This document shows, in pieces, positions 42,828 to 56,044 of a stretch of 64,000 bases of DNA. The DNA comes from Candidatus Methylomirabilota bacterium (GTDB taxonomy: Bacteria; Methylomirabilota; Methylomirabilia; Methylomirabilales; Methylomirabilaceae). The position numbers and the translations under genes are program-made. The stretch is from NCBI GenBank assembly GCA_016207095.1, contig JACQQF010000020.1:1-64000 (forward strand), in the 5' to 3' direction. The notes beneath the pieces were generated by a model. That model did no database searches, was not told the DNA's origin, and was given only the letters and a program-made list of their open reading frames with translations. Numbering within the stretch: the stretch's first letter is position 1; each line of letters opens with the position of its first letter.

Positions 42828-44000
42828 TCAGAGAAGTTGGACGATCAACTCATTCGCCACCAGGAGCCCTCGCGCTGTGATCTGCACCCGCCCCTCTTTC
42901 AGGCCGAGGAATCCGTCATCCAACAAGCGCACCACCCGATCAGAGGCGCTGAGGTCATCAATACCCAGCATCTCTTTGAACGTCTGCAGGTCTAATCCGG
43001 CCCGCAACCGAAGCCCTAGCATCAGGCGCTCGGACCGCAACGTTTCGTGAGAGACCGGCTCGCTGCCCGCAACGGCGGTCCCCCGTTCCCGGATGGCGCG
43101 CAGATAGTTGGCTGGAAGTAGCTCATTGTAAAATCGCCGCCCACCGAGAAATGAATAGGCCCCGGCCCCCAGGCCAAGATACTCCTGGTGCTGCCAATAG
43201 ACCAGGTTGTGCCGACAATGGAATCCGGGTTGCGAGAAGTTGGAGATTTCGTACTGTTCGAAACCGGCGCCCTGAAGTAATTCTATCGTCATCTGGTACA
43301 TCGCCGCCTCAGTCTCTTCATCGGGCAGCTCAAGGGAGCCTGCGCGATGCTCGTGGTGAAGCCGCGTCCCCTCCTCGAGGATCAGTCCGTAAGCGGAGAG
43401 GTGTTCGGGATTCAAGCGGATGGCCCAGCGCAGCGACTTTACCCAGTCGTCGAGGTTTTGACCGGGGAGCCCGAACATCAGGTCCAGGTTGATATTGAGG
43501 AAGCCGGCGGTGCGAGCCAGCCAGAAGGTCTGTTCGGCCTCATGCGCGCCATGCGACCGACCGATCCGCTGCAGGAGTCCGTCCTGCACGGCCTGAACGC
43601 CGAAACTGAGACGGTTGACCCCACCCTCCCTCATTGCCCGCAGCTTCGGGAGATCCACCGTTCCTGGGTTTGCCTCAAGACTGATCTCCGCCCCGTCCTC
43701 GAGCATGAAGGCCGCTCGACAGTGATCGAGAACATCATGGATCTGTGAGGCTTCAAGGATCGACGGGGTTCCGCCGCCGAAGAAAACGGAACAGATCTGC
43801 CGGTTGCGGACCGATTCCGTTGCGGCCCACACATCGATCTCCTGCGAAAGCCCTGTGAGGTACTGCTCGGCCTGGACCGCATCGAACCGGTAGGTGTTGA
43901 AATCGCAGTAGTAACAGCGCGAGGCGCAGTAGGGGATGTGGATGTACAACCCCAATGGTGCGGGGTGCGGGGTGCGGGGTGCGGGGTGATTCTCCTGCAT
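42828..44000 (-). CDS. hemW: Heme chaperone HemW (radical SAM)
   Basis: About 390 aa. Radical SAM cluster motif CASRCYYCDF within LYIHIPYCASRC, then SVFFGGGTPSIL, ISLEANPGTVD, LSFGVQAVQDGLL and the HemW-specific H-N-x-x-Y-W (RHNLVYWQHQEYLG). It binds heme and an Fe-S cluster; it is not a coproporphyrinogen oxidase. The native start is obscured, since DNA before LGLYIHIP is heptamer repeat. ATG at 44000 lies inside the repeat, TTG at 44042 overlaps the lepB stop, and a TTG codes the Leu just before GLYIHIP. Confidence 0.92.
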   Translation of the reverse strand: MQENHPAPRTPHPAPLGLYIHIPYCASRCYYCDFNTYRFDAVQAEQYLTGLSQEIDVWAATESVRNRQICSVFFGGGTPSILEASQIHDVLDHCRAAFMLEDGAEISLEANPGTVDLPKLRAMREGGVNRLSFGVQAVQDGLLQRIGRSHGAHEAEQTFWLARTAGFLNINLDLMFGLPGQNLDDWVKSLRWAIRLNPEHLSAYGLILEEGTRLHHEHRAGSLELPDEETEAAMYQMTIELLQGAGFEQYEISNFSQPGFHCRHNLVYWQHQEYLGLGAGAYSFLGGRRFYNELLPANYLRAIRERGTAVAGSEPVSHETLRSERLMLGLRLRAGLDLQTFKEMLGIDDLSASDRVVRLLDDGFLGLKEGRVQITARGLLVANELIVQLL

Positions 44001-44034
44001 CGCACTTCGCACTTCGCACTTCGGACTTCGGACT
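43958..44034. repeat. Heptamer hairpin at the hemW start
   Basis: Left arm of GTGCGGG units, centre TGATTCTCCTGCA, right arm of TCGCACT and TCGGACT units. It spans the lepB-hemW junction and supplies the likely hemW start codon. Confidence 0.88.
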
Positions 44035-50079: not shown

Positions 50080-50286
50080 TTAGAAGAGGGACTGAGGAAT
50101 CGTGATGCCCCCGACGAGATGGTGTGTGTTGTCGCTGATGTCTGCCCGGCCTGAGGCAATGCCGACATCAAGACTGGAATGCGTGAACGTGTACTCGGCA
50201 AACAGGCCGAAGAGCCGCATCGGATAACGTTCCAGAACGCGGTCCTTTGGCGAAGTATAATGCTTGACACCTTGCGAAACGCCCAA
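50080..50286 (-). pseudogene. C-terminal remnant of an outer-membrane beta-barrel protein
   Basis: The frame reads FGLFAEYTFTHSSLDV, then HHLVGGITIPQSLF and a stop. Alternating hydrophobic strands and a terminal Phe are the signature of the last strands of an OmpA/OmpX-like barrel. There is no room for signal peptide or other strands, because upstream DNA is non-coding and contains a promoter for the divergent TonB gene. Likely a deletion remnant. Confidence 0.6.
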
Positions 50287-50292
50287 TAAGAT
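50264..50292 (+). promoter_or_regulatory. Promoter of the TonB receptor gene
   Basis: TTGACA (50264-50269), 17-bp spacer, TAAGAT (50287-50292). Predicted start of transcription near 50299, giving a 5' leader of about 167 nt. Confidence 0.75.
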
Positions 50293-50357
50293 TGCGCGCG
50301 ACCTTGAAGAGCTATTCGGGAAGATAGCCTATGGCACCCGTACCCGAAGGCCGGAAC

Positions 50358-50397
50358 GCCTTGCACGTGGACCTGACTTCGTGCGGGGCTTTTTTTT
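50358..50397 (+). terminator. Intrinsic terminator inside the TonB receptor leader
   Basis: GCCTTGCACG pairs with CGTGCGGGGC (10 bp with two G-T pairs) around a 12-nt loop, followed by eight T. It lies between the promoter and the ATG at 50466 with no gene before it, so it looks like a transcription attenuator or riboswitch expression platform. Confidence 0.75.
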
Positions 50398-50465
50398 GGT
50401 GGCCGGTTCCCGACCTGTATAAGCCGCAAGACGAGGCTGAAGTATCCGAGCACGGAGTTCTAGCG

Positions 50466-52580
50466 ATGCGACGAAGCGCGGCTCTACTCCGCGGCGGCAT
50501 TGTCATCCTATTCCTGATATCTGTACTCGTCGGTCAGGCCGATAGGGCATTGGGCGTCGAGAGGGAAGGTGGTCCATCCTCACAGCAGGAGCAGACTATC
50601 GAGCTGTCGCCAGTGGTCGTAACGGCTACGCGCGGGGAGCGACCAAGCTTCGACGTGCCAAACGCCGTGACGATCGTCGATCGCGAGGATGCCGAGCGGC
50701 AGGCACCGAGGGTCCTCCCAGACCTCTTGCGCGGGGAGACCGGGGTCTTCGTCCAGCAGACCACCCCCGGCCAATCCGCCCCCATCATCCGAGGCCTGAT
50801 CGGAAGCTCGATTCTAATGCTCGTAGACGGGATGCGGCTAAACACCGCCATTTTCCGCTCCGCGCCTAACCAGTATTTTGCGCTGGTGGACCCTTACAAC
50901 GTCCAGCGAATCGAAGTCGTCCGGGGGGCTGGCTCAGCCCTGTATGGCAGCGACGCCATGGGAGGCGTGATCAACGTTCTCACGCCGGTCCCCCGGTTGG
51001 CCAGCGAGCAGTGGCAACTCCACGGCAAGGCACTGGGACAGTTCAGCAGCGCTGACACCTCCTGGGTCAATCGGGTGTCGTTGGAGGGGGGAAAATCGGG
51101 TGTTGCGATACACGGCGGGTTCACCTACCAAAACCACAACGATCTTCGCGGGGGCGGAGACATCGGCATCCAGCGGCCCTCCGGCTACGAGGTGTATGCC
51201 GGCGATGGCGCGCTCTTCCTCGAGCGAGGAAACCAGGATCTGTTCCTCAGCGTCCAGTACCTGAGGCAGCCACAGACCCCTCGCTTCGACGAATTGGTGC
51301 CCGGATTCGGTCGGACTCAGCCCAGTTCGGCTGTCTTCTTCTTCGAGCCAAACGACCGCCTCTTCCTCCACGGGCGATATCGACTCAGGAACCCGCTGCC
51401 ATTTGTGGACGGGCTGGAGCTTCACGTGGCCTTCCAGGAGATCAACGATGACCGGAGGAACCGGGATTTTGGCGGTACGAGGGAAGATCGGGAACGGAAC
51501 CGCGATGCGTTGACAGGCATCACCCTGCAGCTCACCTCACGATGGGGGCAATGGATGACCTTTACCTACGGCGGCGAGATCTATCTGGACGAGGTCAACA
51601 GCAGCCGGGTGGGGCGCAACATCGACACCGGGACGACCTCGACACAACAGAGCCGCTTCGCGGACGGCTCGACGCTCAACAGCTTCTCCTTCTACCTACA
51701 GGACGAGATTCGGGTACATCCGCGCCTGACCGCGGTCCTCGGGGGACGCGTCAGCCACTTCGACATCGACGTCCCCAAAGCGGACCGAGAGGTGGGGGCT
51801 CACCTCACCACAAGCGTTCTGACGGGTAGCCTTGGCCTCCTCTACCATCTGACCCCGACGATCAACCTCGTCACGAATGTGGGGCGCGGCTTCCGCGTTC
51901 CCAATGTCTTCGACCTGTCCACCCTGGGCCCCCGCCCAGGCAACCGCTTCAATATTCCGAGTCCCGACCTGAAGCCGGAGCAGGTGATCACCGTCGATGC
52001 GGGGGTGAAGTTCAATTTCCCCCGATTCACCGGCGAGCTATTCGGCTTCTATGCCGATTACCAGGATAAGATCGAGGATGTCGCAACAGGCGAGGTCACG
52101 CCGGAGGGCAGGCAGATCGTTCAAAGCGCCAACCTCAACAAGGTGACGCTCTATGGAGTCGAAGCGGGCGGGCGGTTTCGCCTCCTGGACAACCTCCAGC
52201 TCTTCGGCAGCCTCACCTTCACCTGGGCAGAAGAGGAGTTCCTTGACGGCAAGACCGTTGCGGCAGACCGGATCCCCCCCGTCAACGGCCAAGTCGGCCT
52301 CCTCTATCGCCCCATGCCCCGCCTGTGGGTCGAGCCCTTCGTCCGGTTCGCCGCCACCCAGGACCGACTGAGCGATCGTGACAGAACAGACCCGCGCATC
52401 AATCCGGAAGGGACGCCAGGCTGGGTCACGGCCAACATCCGGCTCGGCTGGGAGATCACTGAGCGCTTCCGCGCACGCCTTGCGGTAGAGAACATCTTCG
52501 ATCAACCGTATCGGGAGCATGGGTCCGGGATCAACGCGCCCGGCATCAATGCGATCGTCTCCCTCGAGGCCCGCTTCTAG
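50466..52580 (+). CDS. TonB-dependent outer-membrane receptor
   Basis: 704 aa. Signal peptide (LLRGGIVILFLISVLVGQA), TonB box region ELSPVVVTATRGERP, plug domain with PIIRGLIGSSILMLVDGMRL and VEVVRG-like IEVVRGAGSALYGSDAMGG, then a 22-strand barrel ending IVSLEARF. Features such as ENIFDQPYREHGSGINAPG resemble heme/vitamin-B12/iron receptors; the substrate cannot be named. ATG at 50466 chosen over the frame to 50331 because it begins the signal peptide. The TAG stop is formed by a MITE end. The long leader carries a terminator. Confidence 0.92.
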   Translation: MRRSAALLRGGIVILFLISVLVGQADRALGVEREGGPSSQQEQTIELSPVVVTATRGERPSFDVPNAVTIVDREDAERQAPRVLPDLLRGETGVFVQQTTPGQSAPIIRGLIGSSILMLVDGMRLNTAIFRSAPNQYFALVDPYNVQRIEVVRGAGSALYGSDAMGGVINVLTPVPRLASEQWQLHGKALGQFSSADTSWVNRVSLEGGKSGVAIHGGFTYQNHNDLRGGGDIGIQRPSGYEVYAGDGALFLERGNQDLFLSVQYLRQPQTPRFDELVPGFGRTQPSSAVFFFEPNDRLFLHGRYRLRNPLPFVDGLELHVAFQEINDDRRNRDFGGTREDRERNRDALTGITLQLTSRWGQWMTFTYGGEIYLDEVNSSRVGRNIDTGTTSTQQSRFADGSTLNSFSFYLQDEIRVHPRLTAVLGGRVSHFDIDVPKADREVGAHLTTSVLTGSLGLLYHLTPTINLVTNVGRGFRVPNVFDLSTLGPRPGNRFNIPSPDLKPEQVITVDAGVKFNFPRFTGELFGFYADYQDKIEDVATGEVTPEGRQIVQSANLNKVTLYGVEAGGRFRLLDNLQLFGSLTFTWAEEEFLDGKTVAADRIPPVNGQVGLLYRPMPRLWVEPFVRFAATQDRLSDRDRTDPRINPEGTPGWVTANIRLGWEITERFRARLAVENIFDQPYREHGSGINAPGINAIVSLEARF

Positions 52581-52943: not shown

Positions 52944-54221
52944 CTACCGCTTGTCCAGCTTCAGGAGATCATTCGGCACAAAGCCTGACCCTTCCGTAAT
53001 CTTCGCGATGGCAGCGTCGGCTCCGAAGAAGTCTGTAACCCGAACCTTTCCCTTCGAGTCTCCAAGGTCGAGGCCTACGAACAGCTTCGTGGCGGGGTGA
53101 TACACCTCCTGGCCATCGCTCTTGAAGACCCGAAGGAGATCGCCCTCCTGGAGACCGGAGCGACGGCCGGCATTGATCCGAACCCGGCCATCTTCGACGG
53201 AGAGGACGCGCGCGCTCCACTCATATTCGACCGTCTTCTTGAGGATGGCGGTGGACAGTTGATCCGATGCCTGCTTGAGCGCCTCTACCCTGGCCAACGC
53301 CTCCTGCGACCCGGAGCCCGTCTGCGTCCCCTTGGCCGACAACAGGCTCAACGCTTGGCCGGTGAGCCCCTCCCGGATCTCGCCTTTCAACACGACCTGG
53401 GCCTGCACCTGGCCTCGTCGATCCCAGTCACTGCTGACACCGGCTTCATCGAGGAAGATCACGAGCTGGGTTCCCAGGTCCCGTTCCAACAGTGTGGCTA
53501 TCTGCTTGGCGTTGGCGGCCGACGGGCGAATCCCATGGTCCCGAAGAACGCGATCGACCAACGGAGGCTCCACCAGGATCAACCTTGTGTCCTTCTCAAG
53601 GACCGATGTCACAATCTCCAGCGGGATCCGCCCGAACCCCTTCGGGTTCGCCGCCTCGGGCTCGAACCCGACCATCGCGACGCGGTTCACCGGGGCTCGT
53701 CCGTTGACTGAAACGACCTTTGCCCGAGAGGCTCCCACCCCGGTGGCAGCGGCCGGAGCGCCGCCGGCGGCCAACTCGGCCTCGAGCTTGGCGAGTCGCT
53801 CCTCCAGGCCCTTCCGCTTTTGCTCCTCCTCTTTCGACCATCCGAACAGCTCGGTCAGCCGGCCAAGACCCAGGTCAAACGTGCCCCCCGGATCCCGCTG
53901 GCGGAAATACTCACCGGAGACCAGGAACGGCGAGCGTACAATCTTCTCTTCCCACTCCTTCTGACTCTCGGTGAGCGGCTTCTCGGCCTTCTTGTCCTTC
54001 TCTTCTGTCTTCACTGCAGGATCGGTTTTCTCAGACTTGGCCGACTGAGATGCTGGCGCCGAGGCCGCCTGTCCCTTAGAAGGCGCCGCTGTCTTGCTCT
54101 TTTCAGCCGCCTGCTCCCCTCCTTGCGCAGACCAGACCCGGTTCCAGAGTGAGCAGCCGGACTGGCAGAGGGCTGCCATGAGTAGGAGTGAGAGGCTGAA
54201 CCGCCGCGACTTCATACGCAC
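52944..54221 (-). CDS. Putative lipoprotein with CsgG-like and FlgT-C-like segments
   Basis: 425 aa. Signal peptide with a lipobox-like QSGC near residues 20-23, a Lys/Ala/Ser-rich linker, and ESQKEWEEKIVRSPFLVSGE. Residues about 175-310 resemble the CsgG/LpoB fold (NRVAMVGFEP, EIVTSVLEKDTRLILVEPPL, LLERDLGTQLVIFLDE). Residues about 335-425 (DGRVRINAGRRSGLQEGDLL, HPATKLFVGLDLGD) resemble FlgT-C. The same two segments occur in the FG-GAP protein encoded at 58458. Together with the porin pair between them, an envelope complex is possible. Confidence 0.68.
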   Translation of the reverse strand: MRMKSRRFSLSLLLMAALCQSGCSLWNRVWSAQGGEQAAEKSKTAAPSKGQAASAPASQSAKSEKTDPAVKTEEKDKKAEKPLTESQKEWEEKIVRSPFLVSGEYFRQRDPGGTFDLGLGRLTELFGWSKEEEQKRKGLEERLAKLEAELAAGGAPAAATGVGASRAKVVSVNGRAPVNRVAMVGFEPEAANPKGFGRIPLEIVTSVLEKDTRLILVEPPLVDRVLRDHGIRPSAANAKQIATLLERDLGTQLVIFLDEAGVSSDWDRRGQVQAQVVLKGEIREGLTGQALSLLSAKGTQTGSGSQEALARVEALKQASDQLSTAILKKTVEYEWSARVLSVEDGRVRINAGRRSGLQEGDLLRVFKSDGQEVYHPATKLFVGLDLGDSKGKVRVTDFFGADAAIAKITEGSGFVPNDLLKLDKR

Positions 54222-54380: not shown

Positions 54381-54418
54381 CGAAAACCCCCTCCCGAATT
54401 GCCGGGAGGGGGTTTTCG
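54381..54418 (-). terminator. Strong hairpin terminator after porin 1
   Basis: CGAAAACCCCCTCCCG and CGGGAGGGGGTTTTCG form a 16-bp perfect stem with a 6-nt loop, flanked by a T run on each strand. It lies 25 bp after the porin stop. It could act in both directions. Confidence 0.88.
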
Positions 54419-54442: not shown

Positions 54443-56044
54443 TTAGAAGTTCCAGAGCAACTCCATGGCCAGACGAATGGCGGTTTCATCGGGCGTTGTT
54501 CCGTTGTTCGCCAGTGCCCGGGTGACTTGCTTGAGGCCATCTCCGGGGACGAGGAACGAGAACTGGCCTTTGACCACCATATTCTTATCCAGCCACCAGG
54601 AGACTTCGTTGTCCCAGGCCACGCCGATCTCATGGTTAGTGATCAGGTTAGGGGCACCGCTTGCGGTGGCGGCGCAGACTCCTGCGGCAACGTTCACGAG
54701 GCAGAAATTTTCGTTATACTCCATGTAGTAGACGTTGGTCCGATAGCTCCAGTTCTTGACCGGATCGACGGTGATGCCGCCGCCGATCAGGAGCAAGCCC
54801 GGGTTATCGCCTCGGCCGGTCCCCACCAGACCGCCGACCCCAAGGTTGCTGTTCTGGTTTCCGCGCTGGTCGGGGATGAAGCTGTACAGTATTGTTCCGA
54901 TCACGGGGTTCGTATCGGCAAGGATCGTATTCTCACCGCCGAATGACCCGGTGAACCGCTGGAAGTTCTTCCCGGTGTACCCCCTCAACTTGTTGTCGGT
55001 CGGATTGTCGTCGCCCTCGGTCCACAGCACGCCGATGTGCGGGACGAACCGGAAGCCGAACCACGGGGTCATGTCATAGGCGATATCGCCAAAGAACGCG
55101 TTCGACTCGATGTCGAATTTGTCTCCCGCGACCAGCATCCGCTCCGCCTCACCGAACATATGGGAGTACTGGGCAGCGATCTTAAAGCCGGCGATGCTGC
55201 CGACGAAGATCGGGCTGATGAAGTGGGCATTGACGTTCTGGCAGGTGGTGTTGGCGCCGCCGACGAGACCGCAGGGATCGCCCGTGGGGAAGTTGCCTCG
55301 GACCTTCTGGTCGTTCAACGCATAGATCAACCCGAACTTCGTGTCCTTAAACAACGTGTAGTTGACCCGGGCAGAATAGATGCTGCGGTCATTATCGTAG
55401 CCGGTGTTGGTCTCGGCATTAACTGTGATCACCCCGGCGGCGATGGCAGGGGCGATGATTCTGCGATTGGATTCCACCACCTTGTGATAGCCGAATTTCC
55501 AGTCGAAGTTGGCGACTCCGCCGACCAGATTGAAACCCGGGTCGTCATCGGTATAGACTAGCGACCCGGCGTCCAGATCCACCGTGTAGACGTCCCAGCC
55601 GGCATTCAAGCGAGACAAAATCCAGGGGAGCTTGACGCTGGCGTTCAGCCGCTCGATCCCAAAGGCCGCGAAGTCACCCTGGGTCTGGTTCGAGCGGTCC
55701 ACGGTGCGGGACGACAGGATGTCGTCGAACTCGATCGCGAAGTAGACGTCCCAGATGTCGCCCTTGGCAAAGTTGAAGTAGAGGCGATCCTCCGACCGGA
55801 TGTAGCCTTGGCCGACCACCCCGGCCTCGTTGAGGTGGGCGGTAAACGCTCCGTTCCCAGTCTTCCCCTTAATGCCGAAGTCCCAGTTCTGCTCGTAGGT
55901 CGGGATCATCCTGACCTGGGCCCCGAACTTGGCGGTGATATCGCCGTCGGTCTTGATCACGACGCTTCCAGGTCCAGCATAGGCAACAACCGAGAGCCCC
56001 ATCACCAACATGAGGCTGAGCACTACGAACGCTAGGCGCTTCAT
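54443..56044 (-). CDS. Outer-membrane porin-like protein (paralogue 1)
   Basis: 533 aa. Signal peptide MKRLAFVVLSLMLVMGLSVV ending AYAG, then GPGSVVIKTDGDITAKFGAQ and many alternating beta segments; ends in Phe (LAMELLWNF), as barrel proteins do. Conserved blocks shared with paralogue 2: EQNWDFGI, YIRSEDRLYFNFAKGD, LSSRTVDRSNQTQGDF, HIGVLW and FGGENTILAD. Substrate unknown. GGGGAGGTGAGAGG precedes the ATG. Its own promoter and a strong terminator mark a single-gene unit. Confidence 0.85.
   Translation of the reverse strand: MKRLAFVVLSLMLVMGLSVVAYAGPGSVVIKTDGDITAKFGAQVRMIPTYEQNWDFGIKGKTGNGAFTAHLNEAGVVGQGYIRSEDRLYFNFAKGDIWDVYFAIEFDDILSSRTVDRSNQTQGDFAAFGIERLNASVKLPWILSRLNAGWDVYTVDLDAGSLVYTDDDPGFNLVGGVANFDWKFGYHKVVESNRRIIAPAIAAGVITVNAETNTGYDNDRSIYSARVNYTLFKDTKFGLIYALNDQKVRGNFPTGDPCGLVGGANTTCQNVNAHFISPIFVGSIAGFKIAAQYSHMFGEAERMLVAGDKFDIESNAFFGDIAYDMTPWFGFRFVPHIGVLWTEGDDNPTDNKLRGYTGKNFQRFTGSFGGENTILADTNPVIGTILYSFIPDQRGNQNSNLGVGGLVGTGRGDNPGLLLIGGGITVDPVKNWSYRTNVYYMEYNENFCLVNVAAGVCAATASGAPNLITNHEIGVAWDNEVSWWLDKNMVVKGQFSFLVPGDGLKQVTRALANNGTTPDETAIRLAMELLWNF

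Follow-up and report, generated by a model that had tools for sequence, protein, structure and literature searches.

The DNA upstream of the gene for a TonB-dependent outer-membrane receptor in the genome of a methane-oxidising bacterium of the genus Candidatus Methylomirabilis (NC10) carries a predicted promoter followed by an intrinsic terminator, and with moderate confidence we consider a 5′-leader attenuator of the receptor gene to be the best reading of this arrangement. Judged by its anatomy, the locus would be a new example of the known leader-terminator kind. RNA polymerase would initiate near position 50299 of the window (the whole stretch of 64,000 nucleotides analysed here), most complexes would terminate at 50358–50397 after ∼99 nt, giving a leader RNA of ∼99 nt, and receptor mRNA would come only from complexes that read through. 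Activity of the promoter at 50264–50292, a functional terminator and dependence of the receptor gene on this promoter are all inferred. Possibly the terminator holds receptor dosage down to a constant degree; alternatively, a protein or the state of transcription and translation may control it.

Layout of the receptor leader

Comparisons were made with the leader of a sister species (genome G011, leader on L010). This is also the nearest named record, a MAG labelled Candidatus Methylomirabilis (JACPQX010000159.1), whose receptor is 78–80% identical. The features of the locus in the window are:

50264–50292, + strand: sigma-70-type promoter TTGACA-17-TAAGAT, predicted (–35 TTGACA at 50264–50269, –10 TAAGAT at 50287–50292, 17-nt spacer)
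50299–50357, + strand: 5′ segment of the leader, with transcription predicted to start near 50299; 34/50 identity to the sister over 50299–50348, background level only
50358–50389, + strand: terminator hairpin, 10 bp, 12-nt loop, –17.9 kcal/mol
50390–50397, + strand: U tract (T8) of the intrinsic terminator, 8/8 identical at L010:4925–4932
50398–50465, + strand: post-terminator leader with Shine-Dalgarno sequence, 68 nt in both species
50466–52580, + strand: TonB-dependent receptor, 704 aa, plug and barrel, N-terminal signal peptide

The first-pass annotation had described this order of elements, and the sequence bears it out: the promoter is present with the hexamers and spacing claimed, which recur in the sister except for one base of the –10 box, the GC-rich hairpin with eight T lies at 50358–50397 where it had been placed ∼60 nt past the promoter, and the receptor frame, estimated to start ∼70 bp past the terminator, has its ATG at 50466, 68 nt past the T run and preceded by a GGAG Shine-Dalgarno sequence. 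The terminator arms GCCTTGCACG (5′) and CGTGCGGGGC (3′) enclose the 12-nt loop. The hairpin begins 65 nt past the –10 box and ∼59 nt past the expected start site, in a leader of ∼167 nt up to the receptor start codon.

A promoter scan gave one match in 6 kb against 0.8 expected, which is not significant alone, so the hexamers by themselves are no proof. The combined promoter/terminator scan had skipped the hairpin because its 12-nt loop exceeds the loop limit of 8 used there. In a folding-based scan, 50358–50397 was the sole stable hairpin followed by eight T in the window, and with looser criteria the same scan returned eight matches over both strands versus three in the reversed control. T8 runs occur only twice in the whole window (61% GC). 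With a G+C-rich hairpin and a U tract directly after it, the element has the form of an intrinsic terminator.

Strong intrinsic terminators seem to be scarce in the host genome. Searching for a GC-rich-plus-T6 pattern yielded 45 matches versus 34 in the reversed control, and only a handful of the matches are true hairpins; this is a narrow pattern, and its count serves as a guide only, partly substituting for a genome-wide terminator census. The genome encodes five more receptors with a plug domain, none of which has a leader terminator. Elsewhere in the genome, a perfect 11-bp terminator hairpin with T8 (L088:2375–2408, G000:C54) is found downstream of a 582-aa ORF, in ∼1.1 kb devoid of ORFs of 90 aa; it could mark where a non-coding RNA or a mobile element ends. 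Within the window, a near-perfect symmetric hairpin at 54387–54412, CCCCCTCCCG-6-CGGGAGGGGG flanked on both sides by TTTTCGTT, is located between two minus-strand genes, one ending at 54443 and one starting at 54221, and has the appearance of a terminator for both directions. Between hemN-like and lepB-like minus-strand genes, 7-bp units are repeated in tandem in two short arrays (GGTGCGG ×4.6 and TCGCACT ×5) at 43957–44034.

The best models for the receptor are haem/haemoglobin receptors, all of them scoring below the family cut-offs: the haem receptor model TIGR01785 gives 226 bits against a cut-off of 317. Against the BtuB family model, too, the receptor stays far under the cut-off. The nearest solved chains are PhuR, the colicin I receptor and BtuB.

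Conservation and distribution of the leader

A single 1-nt indel suffices to align the leaders of the window and L010 over the whole stretch between the –35 box and the ATG. In L010 the promoter reads TTGACA-17-TAAAAT (L010:4798), with an identical –35 box, a –10 box changed from TAAGAT to TAAAAT, and the identical spacer segment CGAAACGCCC; over the promoter region 31 of 38 positions agree. This retention of –35, spacer and –10 argues for the attenuator. The hairpin arms are identical to L010:4893–4924 at 19 of 20 positions and the loop at 8 of 12, while the region past the T run matches at 35 of 51. Arms and T run together are thus identical at 27 of 28 positions versus 69 of 101 in the flanking leader (Fisher's exact p = 0.0014), and this contrast, together with the diverged loop, also supports the attenuator. 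Loop and flanks diverge about as much as third codon positions at the start of the receptor gene (26 changes in ∼78). The stop signal, being almost unchanged in the sister species, is therefore probably real. Selection appears, from this one species pair, to have held the terminator and the promoter hexamers and not the remaining leader. It is this conservation in a second species, not the promoter scan, that is decisive for the feature being real.

The 68-nt distance from T run to ATG is the same in both species, and no second promoter is conserved between them (TATAAG at 50418 is CATGGG in L010), which again favours a terminator acting on the receptor transcript. An N-terminal extension of the receptor frame through the terminator was rejected, as substitutions in the post-terminator leader are distributed 10/6/4 over the codon positions of that frame, without third-position bias. 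Hence the anatomy of an attenuator, a same-strand terminator between a promoter and the first gene, is conserved, in one relative only.

The order of genes for a polyprenyl synthase, an ArnT-like protein and a PAP2 protein (all on the minus strand), followed by the receptor on the plus strand, is common to the window and G011. In both species PAP2 is encoded on the minus strand, a further point for the attenuator, and the terminator is not fed by any sense gene. The first-pass annotation had named service to a transcript from upstream as evidence against its reading; the strands of the upstream genes speak against such service. PAP2 is present in twelve other genomes of the genus, and this receptor was not adjacent in any of the eight surroundings checked. 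Between PAP2 and the promoter, the window contains 176 bp (50085–50260) that are absent from L010. Here, an open minus-strand frame of 57–82 aa (50083–50256) resembles the C-terminal strands of outer-membrane barrels (…FAEYTFTHSS…HHLVGGITIPQSLF*) and lacks the N-terminal part; its single relative, a weak one, is in G049 (38% over 40 aa), and it is likely a gene relic.

A search of 15 genus genomes with the leader DNA at relaxed E found it only in G011 besides its own genome. Leader and receptor co-occur in these two of the 15 genomes and the leader is found nowhere else among 94 genomes of the phylum; that it always accompanies the receptor argues for the attenuator as well. Collecting homologous leaders and building a covariance model, as had been proposed in the first-pass annotation, recovered the second leader and no wider family: in the 94 phylum genomes, the model matched just those two and, weakly, a site in G034. 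The G034 match (E 0.0065 per genome) is expected by chance over 94 genomes, falls in a coding region and has no T run. The leader is therefore not without conservation in relatives, the outcome that would have spoken against the earlier reading, and this conservation is confined to one sister species. At E up to 1e-100, 95 phylum genomes contain the receptor only in its own genome, in G011 (same genus) and in G029 (same order, 60% identical). The G029 receptor, which is followed by genes for TonB, a cupredoxin and a cytochrome c, has no terminator of such kind in its leader.

Competing explanations

The main rival, which we regard as unlikely, is a stand-alone sRNA gene of ∼99 nt beside a receptor that has its own promoter or is served by minor read-through. 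Such a gene would account for the full promoter-to-terminator unit with its U8 end and strong 3′ hairpin, and in other bacteria leader RNAs that end within the 5′ UTR are able to function in trans (PMC7815308, PMC5089854). However, the body at 50299–50348 is at background identity (34/50) and thus shows no sign of a conserved pairing seed, and the unit occurs with the receptor only, with no conserved second promoter for the latter. In addition, Hfq (PF17209) was absent at E 0.01 from the 95%-complete genome, which argues against an Hfq-dependent sRNA.

It is rather improbable that the terminator is a constitutive insulator blocking stray transcription into the receptor gene, with the promoter-like hexamers being incidental. 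This would agree with a promoter match at chance frequency and with the intergenic site, flanked by a minus-strand gene on one side and the receptor on the other, but there is no upstream sense gene to shield from, and both promoter hexamers are retained in the sister at equal spacing.

The suggestion of the first-pass annotation that the leader contains a ligand-binding riboswitch or another regulated RNA switch is in our judgement very unlikely to be right, even though architecture and gene type fit and a cobalamin riboswitch precedes another receptor gene of the same genome. The 5′ part offers just 59 nt of room. Rfam searches at gathering and relaxed thresholds (E up to 5) returned nothing relevant in the leader and one irrelevant sub-threshold sR2 match; as a positive control, the same search detected the cobalamin riboswitch (RF00174, 79 bits, L092:1196–1397, G000:C20). 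There is thus no covariance-model match that would identify a known riboswitch, in agreement with the earlier remark that no known consensus is visible. To count as a new class, the leader would have to show a conserved, structured aptamer that covaries across several species, and it is represented by two loci with a 5′ part at background identity. No conserved helix was found in this part between the window and L010, the leaders fold no better than shuffled sequences (z of –1.39 and +0.49 for the window, –0.41 and +0.47 for L010), and duplex energies between upstream sequence and the 5′ arm of the terminator are no better than those of shuffles. Lacking an aptamer-like fold, an Rfam match or a wider family, the suggested new metabolite- or metal-responsive switch is not supported.

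The antiterminator proposed along with it, CGGGAA (50317–50322) paired with TTCCCG (50407–50412), is located where it had been reported and pairs perfectly in the window; the L010 homologues CTGGCA and TTTGCA retain two of the six pairs. Both segments lie outside the terminator stem and TTCCCG is transcribed only past the U tract. Since its 3′ half is made after the termination point and there is no overlap with the stem, the pairing could not prevent termination, and the proposal is not supported. Two further candidates each gained a mismatch in L010 and are not conserved: the 5′ helix TTCGGG/CCCGAA of the MFE structure, considered as an alternative, and the competitor AAGGC/GCCTT, which would trap the 5′ arm of the terminator. 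As no conserved antiterminator was found, there is no direct sign of regulation. What survives of the first-pass reading is the promoter–terminator leader of a TonB receptor gene, which a relative shares, and not the antiterminator or the ligand switch.

We assign similarly little probability to a lineage-specific, regulated attenuator that responds to a protein or ligand and controls an uptake receptor of NC10 methane oxidisers through a mechanism for which no antiterminator is described. Attenuation by a leader peptide or upstream ORF, in which the ribosome decides on terminator formation, is the most improbable reading. TTG 50304 opens the frame LKSYSGR*, whose first seven codons read LKSCSGR in L010, with third positions accounting for four of the five changes. 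However, this start would be separated by 5 nt from the 5′ end predicted for the RNA and has no Shine-Dalgarno sequence, the stop codon has not been kept, L010 lacks ATG 50331, and no competing helix is conserved.

The 5′-leader attenuator accordingly remains our preferred reading; counted against it are the number of orthologous leaders (only two), the lack of a conserved antiterminator, and the G029 receptor without such a leader.

Comparison with known systems

Uptake of metals or cofactors likely matters for methane oxidation by NC10 bacteria, and a selected leader terminator where strong intrinsic terminators seem few would provide one clean locus; apart from that, the architecture is ordinary. 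A literature search for Methylomirabilis and TonB brought up nothing, by title or abstract, that deals with such a leader or with RNA-level control of uptake, and the literature on leaders and terminators supplied analogues only.

The cobalamin riboswitch RF00174 of the host genome resembles the leader studied here as a cis-acting leader before a TonB-dependent receptor gene; it differs in that RF00174 has no match in the studied leader, whose receptor scores far under the BtuB cut-off. Another parallel is UpsM of the R. sphaeroides dcw cluster, a small RNA produced by a leader terminator (PMC5089854). Both have a Rho-independent terminator in the 5′ UTR that yields, or in our case would yield, a small RNA upon termination, and both are confined to one lineage, whereas UpsM derives from a 268-nt leader with Hfq- and RNase E-dependent processing and the receptor leader is ∼167 nt long in a genome in which no Hfq was found. 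In E. coli, premature intrinsic termination takes place in the 5′ UTR of ispU (uppS) at a 6-bp stem followed by eight U (PMC7815308). Although that site was mapped by experiment in a gene of another class, and the receptor leader is known from its sequence, the two share the same anatomy.
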